Below are positions 36,677 through 41,154 of a stretch of 64,000 nucleotides of DNA, piece after piece. Numbering within the stretch: position 1 is the stretch's first letter; the number at the start of each line of letters is the position of its first letter. A program made the position numbers and the translations under genes. Source of the DNA: Dehalococcoidales bacterium (lineage in GTDB: Bacteria > Chloroflexota > Dehalococcoidia > Dehalococcoidales > UBA5760); NCBI GenBank assembly GCA_028716225.1, contig JAQUQE010000007.1, forward strand, positions 1 to 64,000, given 5' to 3'. A model generated the notes under the pieces. It searched no databases. It was not told the DNA's origin and saw nothing but the letters and a program-made list of their open reading frames with translations.

Positions 36677-37561
36677 CTATGTTTTGGAATTAGCCGCCTT
36701 GTATAGACTCAAAGCATCATCAAAGGTCAGGCTTGCTGCATAGTGGCTAACCATAGCCGGAGTCTCCCAGCCACCTAGGGCCTGTATTACCCTATTGGAT
36801 AGGCCACTCTTAACATTGTGAACGCAGAAGCCTCTTCTGAAGCTATGTGCATTACAATGAATGCCTGTAGCTTGACCTAATCTTTGAAGCATTGTCGCTA
36901 TTCCTCTTGCTGTTATTTCTAAAGTATCATGTTTGGAGAACCATTCTTTTACAATGCTGTTACCAGCCAGAGCCTTGCGATAGCGATTACCTTTACCTAA
37001 GACAATTACAATTCCTTCATCCCAATAGAAGTCTTTGGCTTTTATATTAGCAATTTCTGATAGCCTCATTCCTGAATACCATAATAGATTAAGGATAATC
37101 CTGTCTTTTTCAGTTAGTGCGTGGCTTACAAGTATAGCTAATTGTTCCTTGCTTATAGCTGGTAATAGCTTCTTTTGTCTTCTTGGCGGTAGTACTTTCT
37201 CAATAGGATTAGAGGAAAGCTGATCAGTGTGGTATAGCCATCTACAAAGAGTTTTAATGACACGGTAATAGTTGTGTTTGCCATTCCTACAAGTAAGGCT
37301 ATCTAGATAAGATTGGATACCTTCAGGGGTTAAAGGATAGCCAATGAAATTATCTAAGGCGAATTGGTATAGCGTTATAGTTCTTGGATTTGTACCAGAC
37401 GCTCTAGATTTAATGAAGTTATCCAGTTGAGATTTTGCGAACTTTTTTGTGAACAGTTCACAACTGTTTTGTGTGTAAAACTTGGAGCGGGTGAAGGGAT
37501 TCGAACCCTCGACGTCTTGCTTGGGAAGCAAGCACTCTACCGCTGAGTTACACCCGCTCAC
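36677..37561 (-). CDS. Tyrosine recombinase (integrase) of the tRNA-Gly element
   Basis: The open frame covers 294 codons, but the first 26 lie inside tRNA-Gly. The true protein probably begins near the element edge, around KFYTQNSCELFTKK. A SAM-like core-binding domain (FAKSQLDNFIKS...TLCRWLYH) is followed by the catalytic domain: Arg in SGMRLSEIANI, Lys in VLGKGNRYRK, HSFRRGFCVH, Trp in GGWETPAM instead of the usual His, and the nucleophile in VSHYA. After the core repeat there is no ATG, GTG or TTG in frame. Initiation must therefore use a codon within the tRNA, an unusual codon, or, in the circle, sequence from the other end. Confidence 0.88.
   Translation of the reverse strand: MSGCNSAVECLLPKQDVEGSNPFTRSKFYTQNSCELFTKKFAKSQLDNFIKSRASGTNPRTITLYQFALDNFIGYPLTPEGIQSYLDSLTCRNGKHNYYRVIKTLCRWLYHTDQLSSNPIEKVLPPRRQKKLLPAISKEQLAILVSHALTEKDRIILNLLWYSGMRLSEIANIKAKDFYWDEGIVIVLGKGNRYRKALAGNSIVKEWFSKHDTLEITARGIATMLQRLGQATGIHCNAHSFRRGFCVHNVKSGLSNRVIQALGGWETPAMVSHYAASLTFDDALSLYKAANSKT
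37448..37462. promoter_or_regulatory. Palindrome near attR
   Basis: TGTGAACAGTTCACA, 7-bp arms around one base, 20 bases inside the right core. It matches the palindrome at 30869-30884 near the left core. It lies in the 5' part of the recombinase frame. Confidence 0.55.
37483..37506. repeat. attR: 3' end of the intact tRNA-Gly
   Basis: 24 bases identical to 30817-30840, from the encoded CCA to the T loop of tRNA-Gly. It marks the right boundary of the element. Confidence 0.85.
37483..37557 (-). tRNA. tRNA-Gly (anticodon CCC), CCA encoded
   Basis: Read on the minus strand: acceptor GCGGGTG pairs with CACCCGC; the D arm is ACTC-AGCGGTA-GAGT; the anticodon stem is CTTGC/GCAAG with loop TTCCCAA, anticodon CCC; the T arm is GAGGG-TTCGAAT-CCCTT. 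The discriminator is T and CCA is encoded. 75 bases. It is the integration target of the element; its 3' end is duplicated at 30817-30840. Confidence 0.96.
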
Positions 37562-39364: not shown

Positions 39365-40063
39365 ATGTCTCAAGAGCTTGGGCAGGTTGAGAAGCCATTA
39401 GTCGAGGAGTTCAAAGAGGGGAGAAAGCTGTACTTTGTTCCCCTCATTTACTGCGTCAAGGATTCCCCCGATGACTATCTCGATAAATTTAACCGATACT
39501 GGAACCAGGTCGAGGACCAGTTGGGCACCCTCGAGTTAAAGCTGGGTAAAATAAACAGAATATATCATGAGTTGGTCCCGGCGGGTGGTGACGATGGAGT
39601 CAAGATGGTAAAGGACTTCAGCGATAAGAGCTATCAGGTGGTGAAGAATAGACTGGACAAAGGGGCGCAGATGGAAGCCGCTGAAGAGGACGGGCTTTTA
39701 ACGGAGATGATGGACTGGAGCCGGTGTCTGGCCATCGGGCTGCAGAACCAGGGGGTATTCAACCGGGTTTACCAGTCTTACACCGAGGTGAGCAAGAAGA
39801 GGAATGAATATATCGCCGGTCATATTGACGAGACGCTTAAGGCGGATGAAATCGGAATGTTGTTTATGAGGGAGGGACACCAGATTCAATTTCCTAGGGA
39901 TATCCAGGTGTTCTATGTATCTCCCCCGGCGCTTGATGAGATTGGGCGCTGGCTTAGAGACCGCGAAATCCGCCTGGAGCGGAAAGCTGAGCCGGATCAG
40001 GATAAAGAGAAAGAGCAAACGCAAGAGCAGGGTAAGGAGCAAATGCGGGATAAAGACGCTTAG
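39365..40063 (+). CDS. Conserved-looking cytoplasmic protein, function unknown
   Basis: 232 residues, no signal or membrane segment. The body (about 1-200) is mostly helical with segments such as LYFVPLIYCVKDSPDDYLDKF and FNRYWNQVEDQLGTLELKLG. The last 30 residues are a Lys/Glu/Gln-rich tail (KEKEQTQEQGKEQ). GAGGAGG precedes the ATG. It lies 48 bases after the nucleotidyltransferase, so the two are probably co-transcribed. I do not recognise the family. Confidence 0.7.
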   Translation: MSQELGQVEKPLVEEFKEGRKLYFVPLIYCVKDSPDDYLDKFNRYWNQVEDQLGTLELKLGKINRIYHELVPAGGDDGVKMVKDFSDKSYQVVKNRLDKGAQMEAAEEDGLLTEMMDWSRCLAIGLQNQGVFNRVYQSYTEVSKKRNEYIAGHIDETLKADEIGMLFMREGHQIQFPRDIQVFYVSPPALDEIGRWLRDREIRLERKAEPDQDKEKEQTQEQGKEQMRDKDA

Positions 40064-40102
40064 CCGGGGTTGTTTTATATTCAGGACTTTGCCGTATTCC
40101 AC

Positions 40103-40142
40103 AAAAAAAGTGGAGGGCACCTTTTCCAGCACCCTCCACTTT
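40103..40142 (-). terminator. Rho-independent terminator of the candidate RNA
   Basis: Minus strand: AAAGTGGAGGG (40142-40132) pairs with CCCTCCACTTT (40117-40107), 11 bp, and runs into a stretch of T (40109-40103). It can also serve the plus-strand gene ending at 40063, with a poorer T-run. Confidence 0.8.
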
Positions 40143-40298
40143 GTAGTTTCCGTATCTCCTAACTTTCACCACCAGGTCAATCCTCAAACCCAACTCACTT
40201 GCGGTTACCTTCGCCGCAGCGGGGCCTCTCTTTGAGGCTAACCCATTTCACTAGCTCAAGTCGAGTCTGAGTTCCGCCCGCCCCGCCTTTGCGGGGCA

Positions 40299-40343
40299 CT
40301 ATTTGTCAACCTGCCAAACTCCGTATATCCCATGAAGCCTCAT
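40299..40343 (-). CDS. 14-codon leader-type open frame within the candidate RNA
   Basis: ATG 40343-40341 to TAG 40301-40299, peptide MRLHGIYGVWQVDK. TAAGGAGGT stands 5 bases before the ATG, one of the best ribosome sites in the window. The same bases can fold as ACCT-AAGG-AGGT, which would hide the site. Two bases after the stop comes the GCCCCGC hairpin. It could be a real leader peptide or a coincidence of a G-rich RNA. Confidence 0.35.
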   Translation of the reverse strand: MRLHGIYGVWQVDK

Positions 40344-40394
40344 AGCACACCTCCTTAGGTAAAATCCGTCAGGCTCTGCTTGGCCTCTACTTTC

Positions 40395-40423
40395 ATATAA
40401 TCAAATTATCCGTTGATTGTCAA
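40395..40423 (-). promoter_or_regulatory. Promoter of the candidate RNA
   Basis: On the minus strand TTGACA (40423-40418), a 17-base spacer and TTATAT (40400-40395). It points away from the LysE-type gene and towards the terminator at 40142-40103, with no long gene between. Confidence 0.65.
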
Positions 40424-40542: not shown

Positions 40543-41154
40543 GTGTTTCCGTTTCTGTCCAGTGTCGCTCTGGTCTCAATATCCGGGGTTATGATGCCCG
40601 GCCCTGCGTTTGCCGTCACTGTGGCCAGGAGTTATCGGTCCCAGTTTGTCGGCTTGAAGATAGCACTGGGTCATGCCATTGTCGAAGTCCCACTGATGCT
40701 GCTGATATACTTCGGTTTCGGGCGTTTCTTCGAAAGAGAGCCGGTCCAGATTACCCTGTACCTGGTGGGTGGAGCCATTCTGGTCTGGATGGGTATCAAT
40801 ATGTTCCGTAAGAGGGGCAGTGTGGTAGAAAGAGACAGAGAGGTTCATCACCGTTCGGTGATAGCCGGAGTGGCTACCAGCCTGCTAAATCCCCTTTTTT
40901 TCCTGTGGTGGGCAGCCGTGGGCAGTATGCTCATCATGAAGTCCCTGACTTTTGGGTTTATCGGGTTTGCCCTGCTGATTATCGTGCATCTGCTGTGTGA
41001 TTTCGGTTGGCTCGCTTTTGTTTCCGTTCTTGTCTACCGGACCAAATCGCTCTGGGGGGGTAAGGTGCAGGCGGGCCTGCTTACTGCCTGCAGCCTGTTG
41101 CTTATCGGCTTCGGCGGCTGGTTTCTCTCATCGGGTTTGAGGTTGGTGGCTTAG
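40543..41154 (+). CDS. LysE/RhtB-family exporter
   Basis: 203 residues, about six membrane segments. The family signature region near the N-terminus is MMPGPAFAVTVARSYRSQFVGLKIALGHAIVE, followed by the NPLFFLWWAAVGS segment in the fourth helix region. Members export amino acids or related small molecules; the substrate here is not known. It starts at GTG 40543 without an obvious Shine-Dalgarno sequence. It stands alone between the candidate RNA and the deacetylase gene. Confidence 0.85.
   Translation: MFPFLSSVALVSISGVMMPGPAFAVTVARSYRSQFVGLKIALGHAIVEVPLMLLIYFGFGRFFEREPVQITLYLVGGAILVWMGINMFRKRGSVVERDREVHHRSVIAGVATSLLNPLFFLWWAAVGSMLIMKSLTFGFIGFALLIIVHLLCDFGWLAFVSVLVYRTKSLWGGKVQAGLLTACSLLLIGFGGWFLSSGLRLVA

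Follow-up and report, generated by a model that had tools for sequence, protein, structure and literature searches.

Dual-function small RNAs such as Spot 42/SpfP and SgrS/SgrT are free-standing, have their own promoter and terminator, and carry a small translated ORF. To our knowledge, few RNA regulators have been described in Chloroflexota, and especially in Dehalococcoidia. VcdRP is a further dual-function RNA (PMC8672173), and the RNA analysed here resembles it in being free-standing, with its own promoter and terminator and a small, very probably translated ORF. However, it differs from the dual-function small RNAs in having a covarying multibranch fold, an ORF that is tied to a hairpin at a fixed distance, and an apparently phylum-wide range.

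Among leader peptides, ErmBL stalls at its Asp10 codon and the stalling is amino-acid-dependent (PMC8274638). ErmBL-type arrest leaders (PMC8274638, PMC4935803, PMC9178857) share with our locus a short ORF that is conserved in its amino acids rather than its codons. They also share Val-Asp followed by Lys, Arg, or Ser at a similar chain length, a motif so short that the likeness might be a coincidence. Unlike these leaders, the locus has no downstream resistance gene, carries a conserved hairpin 6-7 nt past the Asp codon, and is mostly free-standing; stalling is something that we infer here. In Sinorhizobium meliloti, the attenuator RNA rnTrpL and the 14-aa peptide peTrpL both act in trans (PMC7298713). 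Our locus likewise has a 14-aa Trp-bearing leader peptide on a terminated RNA, but no trp genes follow, its single Trp codon is not essential, a Shine-Dalgarno site is present, and a large conserved domain separates the ORF from the terminator. Nor does it have the layout of a trpL-type attenuator, since the terminator does not lie between the ORF and controlled genes and the ORF has no codon runs, only the one Trp codon. Covarying multi-helix RNAs have been found by genome comparison, as this one was (PMC2864571, PMC11109978), and the excerpts of these two papers that we consulted name other motifs for the phylum (Chloroflexi-1 and pan; rdhA in Dehalococcoides). Searches of open-access texts gave nothing specific to this motif. 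The locus is described most closely as a combination of dual-function RNA and leader-peptide device features, put together in a way that we have not found described.

The window, which is the whole 64,000-nucleotide stretch of DNA that was analysed, contains the RNA in an intergenic region between two plus-strand genes (Table 1). The promoter TTGACA-N17-TTATAT that had been read from the sequence earlier is present, and 78 of the 81 homologues keep a promoter with no more than three mismatches to the consensus, compared with 12 of 81 shuffled sequences. The distance from the -10 hexamer to the Shine-Dalgarno site is near-constant among homologues (mostly 35-39 nt). A simple promoter scanner omits this promoter, because TTATAT breaks its rule. 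The transcript start is an estimate, about 7 nt past the -10 hexamer. The U-tailed terminator is also where it had been placed, although its stem has 15 pairs rather than 11. The stretch had been called highly structured, and it folds better than every shuffled sequence (z -4.45; transcript alone, z -4.89). Elsewhere in the window, the apparent start of a recombinase-like ORF (36677-37561, minus strand) overruns a tRNA gene (37486-37557, minus strand), and the ORF could possibly belong to an integrated element whose attachment site lies within the tRNA.

Table 1. Features of the RNA locus and its flanking genes, with positions in the window.
Feature	Position	Strand	Basis or remark
RNA locus, whole	40423-40103	minus	conserved promoter, ~280 transcribed bases, U-tailed terminator
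Flanking gene, no Pfam match	39365-40063	plus	
Flanking gene, LysE-type translocator	40543-41154	plus	
Promoter	40395..40423	minus	TTGACA 40418-40423, 17 nt, TTATAT 40395-40400; read directly
Predicted transcript, ~280-286 nt	40103..40388	minus	promoter and terminator
Shine-Dalgarno site AGGAGGTG	40348..40355	minus	read directly; conserved in homologues
14-codon ORF MRLHGIYGVWQVDK, ATG at 40343, stop TAG	40299..40343	minus	protein-level conservation, 76 homologues
Hairpin P2, 7 pairs, GCCCCGC-AAAG-GCGGGGC	40280-40297	minus	covariation, spacing, fold probability
Helix P1, 5' strand, 14 pairs	40258..40271	minus	covariation; fold probability ~1 for most pairs
Hairpin region P3, within P1, variable sequence and length	40221..40244	minus	covariation
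Hairpin P4, within P1	40200..40218	minus	covariation
Helix P1, 3' strand	40183..40196	minus	covariation
Intrinsic terminator	40103..40142	minus	15-pair stem 40107-40142 and U tail; alignment shows conservation in homologues

The transcribed bases hold no long gene, as the original prediction said, but it overlooked an ORF of 14 codons preceded by a strong Shine-Dalgarno site. The RNA is not purely non-coding, since its 5' part is an ORF conserved at the protein level. Among 76 homologues in the same register, pN/pS was 0.34 over codons 2-13 and fell to 0.22 over codons 7-13. In other frames the values were 1.08-1.68, or 1.08-1.53 in the comparison with 0.34; these are pairwise values uncorrected for kinship, and the contrast between frames is internal. 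All four GTN codons are used for Val9; since only rows with Val at this position were retained (76/81), its invariance is partly built in. The Trp codon is replaced in 15 of the 76 members, and R, F, C, L, and M are the residues that stand in for W10 in some of the family, a variation that tells against the pausing reading favoured below. Conservation of the amino acids rather than the codons of a short leader peptide is a mark of nascent-chain arrest, and it is found here. The ORF and the adjacent hairpin are the most conserved part of the RNA. It is very probable, judging from this coding signature, that the ORF is translated.

There is a stop at codon 15 in 50 of the 76 members, and the others read on into the hairpin. 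In about one third of the long forms and in nearly all short forms (see below), the ORF runs into hairpin-derived codons of random length. Stop readthrough or selenocysteine insertion was considered and rejected, since codon 15 is TGA, TAA, TAG, or a sense codon across members. Three long-form copies (G012:C3, L140; G044:C15, L143; G049:C125, L185) have a peptide ending in GVWLFPS or GVWLFPI and not in GVWQVDS. In G012 and G044, the GVWLFP-type copy is beside a second copy with GVRQTD or GVRQVDS. The GVWLFPS and GVWLFPI copies are possibly specialised paralogues.

The fold has four helices. P2 directly follows the ORF, and P1 (strands CTCAGACTCGACTT and GAGTTGGGTTTGAG) closes a multibranch domain that holds P3 and P4. 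In the window RNA, pair probabilities of P1 and P2 are about 1, except for the end pair of P1, and the inner two model pairs of P4 are absent from the fold. The alignment of P3 is the least certain among the four. The original prediction had already picked out the separate hairpin that is P2, and its other helices fared less well. The nested helices AACTC/GAGTT, ACTTG/CAAGT, and GGTTA/TAACC pair in 71% of cells, only modestly above shuffles, whereas P1-P4 pair in 84-89% of cells with many more double changes. AACTC/GAGTT was right in the two segments, which are those used by P1, and wrong in the register. The long-range CAGGT/ACCTG pair was abandoned, because ACCTG is lost even among close relatives. 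A 5'-UTR hairpin ahead of the Shine-Dalgarno site was rejected as a by-eye pairing in a subset of members that gave no consensus structure. Sequestration of the Shine-Dalgarno site by the 3' arm of the terminator was rejected as well, since by eye the terminator sequence is too variable.

Covariation was examined in three ways. In a sequence-only alignment, double changes occurred at 29 of the 38 pairs, compared with 16.6 in shuffled and 13-16 in slid controls. In an alignment of 84 distinct sequences the count was 35 of 38 versus 26.7, with a covariation score of 0.426 versus 0.216; this alignment is model-fitted and so favours the model from the outset, and related rows had served for choosing the structure. 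Since shuffles ignore kinship, a phylogeny-aware test was added. It is our own simplified, R-scape-like version, in which independent columns were simulated 40 times on a maximum-likelihood tree of an 80-row sequence-only alignment, and it gives rough E-values. Of 15,225 column pairs, seven had E <=0.05. Six of these are in P1, P2, P3, and P4, and the seventh is beside a P4 pair; three of the seven exceeded every simulation and four were at the threshold. The original prediction had named a lack of homologues or of covariation in relatives as grounds for rejecting it, and both were found, the covariation in P1-P4. A real structured RNA family at this locus is nearly certain.

By blastn, homologues are strong within the genus and moderate in about 30 genomes of the order. 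Covariance model R1, built from 31 of these homologues, detected the RNA at E <=0.01 in 96 of the 393 genomes sampled from the class, the weakest of these being marginal, and several matches outside the order had E-values of about 1e-36 or better. Model R2 consists of the ORF and hairpin and was built from members found in this analysis, and its E-values are rough. It matched in 53 of 101 relatives; within the class there were matches in 82 of 393 genomes, and a phylum-wide sample gave matches in 31 of 301. Some weak R2 matches (for example L173) look like chance. The GVWQVD core and the hairpin are retained in most of the matches inspected in other classes, many of which also have a similarly placed long-range helix and a terminator; the consensus fold from ten of these members is only rough. 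In family f9 of the order, complete genomes are without the RNA. A GTDB-wide scan with a narrow N-terminal peptide pattern returned only records named as Dehalococcoidia or Chloroflexi, except for one titled Deltaproteobacteria. This record (JABMRW010000038.1, L069, 7594 bases) is probably a mislabelled Chloroflexota bin. Judged from these matches, the family spans Dehalococcoidia, with weaker detection in other Chloroflexota. The RNA was originally proposed as a stand-alone, structured, undescribed family of one lineage. Homologues, covariation, promoter and terminator, lack of strand bias, and lack of an Rfam match bear out all but the last part, and the range extends through Dehalococcoidia and into other Chloroflexota. 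Since the RNA is conserved and usually single-copy in many uncultured lineages, it is probably useful to its hosts.

We also looked for known families and other origins. With Rfam 15 at gathering thresholds, the window, 10 homologous loci, and 20 further loci were scanned, and the only matches in any of them were to tRNA. At relaxed thresholds there were chance-level matches only, none of them credible. The Rfam check proposed earlier thus leaves the minus-strand RNA without a match to a known family. It is not a tmRNA, because there is no RF00023 match in the window and the tmRNA of this genome is on a different contig. Sources from phages, plasmids, and viral contigs gave no match (viral scans used narrow patterns). 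This genome (G000) has two above-cut-off tmRNA matches (C2:184180-184535 and C19:16252-16610) and is about twice the size of its congeners, and thus its bin may be mixed.

The hairpin keeps a close register to the ORF. P2 starts about 7 nt past the Asp13 codon in the window RNA and 6-7 nt past it in 69 of 73 long forms. The distribution of this spacing is the same whether codon 15 is a stop or a sense codon, and therefore the hairpin appears to be registered to the position of a ribosome and not to the end of the ORF. Short forms and members from other classes keep this spacing less strictly. It is mainly because of this register that a pause is suspected, and we put a programmed ribosome pause at about an even chance.

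Among 96 long forms, the next downstream gene is on the same strand as the RNA in 50 and on the opposite strand in 46; in the window it is convergent to the RNA. Since the strand is about even, the RNA is likely to be free-standing. This strand count and coding selection, both comparative, are the grounds on which the RNA can be taken as a free-standing RNA with a translated small ORF. No gene neighbour was common to all long forms, and the neighbours that recur are lineage-local. Several families of the order also have a short form, which consists of the ORF and hairpin without the P1 domain or terminator and usually lies 60-110 nt ahead of a start codon. By a crude rule, the next gene has a signal-peptide-like start in 27 of 29 short forms, whereas the rule is passed in 27 of 104 cases at long-form loci and, for the window, in 11 of 48; the predictor is crude, the gene choice of the script favoured signal-bearing starts, and the proteins come from a few families with paralogues. 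Proteins behind short forms make up 15 clusters. At four long-form loci of genomes that have short forms, 6 of 12 neighbours pass the signal rule, and in a looser count at short-form loci 70 of 122 ORFs pass. The association of the short form with exported-protein genes is suggestive. In short forms the frame relation between leader and gene is random, which disfavours a programmed frameshift that would fuse the two.

We tentatively favour, at somewhat below even confidence, a ribosome-pausing cassette on a stand-alone structured RNA that has been reused as a cis leader. The strong Shine-Dalgarno site would load ribosomes, which would make the peptide as far as GVWQVD. The nascent peptide and the hairpin at the mRNA entrance might then together cause a pause near Asp13, in the manner of leader-peptide arrest. 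As a cis leader ahead of an exported-protein gene, the pause could tune the stability or translation of the message. The stand-alone RNA would be a dual-function RNA acting in trans, since no gene consistently follows it. The simplest route for this would be competition with cassette-bearing messages for whatever factor or signal acts on a paused ribosome. That the RNA acts in trans on messages sharing its cassette is doubtful in itself. Similarly speculative, and perhaps a little less likely, is the broadest version, in which free-standing RNAs throughout the phylum capture a ribosome by the arrest peptide GVWQVD and the registered hairpin and control cassette-bearing exported-protein messages in trans, so that a leader-peptide system is split into a leader and an independent RNA. 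The recurrence of peptide plus hairpin, including before exported-protein genes, suggests a new regulatory device linked to the ribosome. A real pause would make this a leader-peptide element that serves in cis as well as on a free RNA and does not depend on any single downstream gene. For annotation, the gain is a family for which a covariance model can readily be set up, together with a micro-ORF overlooked by gene finders.

Alternatively, the RNA might work by its fold, as a decoy or by binding a protein or ligand, while translation of the ORF would only gate or stabilise it, for example by a ribosome shielding the 5' end from 5' nucleases. The four covarying helices agree with this, as does a P1-type architecture that seems to be kept in other classes. 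However, the P1 domain is less conserved than the peptide and hairpin, its sequence and size vary most between classes, and a mere shield would not need the conserved GVWQVD. We regard this as unlikely but not implausible. A little less likely is that the RNA is a plain mRNA of a functional micropeptide, whose 14 residues act in trans and whose structured 3' part only protects the message. The protein-level conservation is strong and most members have the stop at codon 15, as expected for such a peptide. However, the C-terminus is not fixed, with many ORFs running into hairpin codons; moreover, the distance between the hairpin and codon 13 is kept and the 3' domain covaries.

A classical cis attenuator, in which formation of the terminator, and with it control of the downstream gene, depends on how ribosomes behave on the ORF, is improbable. 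Leader ORF, structured RNA, and terminator are in the correct order for it, and the short form does precede genes, but 46 of 96 long forms, the one in the window among them, have the next gene on the opposite strand, no gene family recurs beyond close lineages, and by eye no antiterminator pairing was seen. A functional replacement of 6S RNA is more improbable still. The Rfam 6S model is below cut-off in all 21 genomes of the order (undetected in 20, sub-threshold in one), with no RF00013 match in this genome, and the RNA is free-standing and usually single-copy; against this, the 6S model also fails in many control genomes, the fold is a multibranch domain and not one long hairpin with a central bubble, and the translated ORF has no counterpart in 6S RNA. 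A chance set of promoter, hairpin, and terminator without function, of a kind easily found by eye, is refuted by the homologues, covariation, and coding selection, and its probability is negligible.

Against the preferred reading of a pausing cassette reused in cis, this genome yielded no intact short form. It does contain two near-identical degenerate copies of the ORF and hairpin (G000:C83:1280-1405, L114; G000:C65:1281-1411, L115), in which TGA replaces the Trp codon. By eye, the opposite strand just downstream of these copies resembles a GGDEF-type coding sequence. In another genome, locus L116 (G072:C10:1-9500) contains serial short-form leaders, each ahead of a different exported-protein gene. 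Direct repeats like TGTTCAGGTTG are found upstream of one L116 leader and also in L117, and they could be response-regulator sites.
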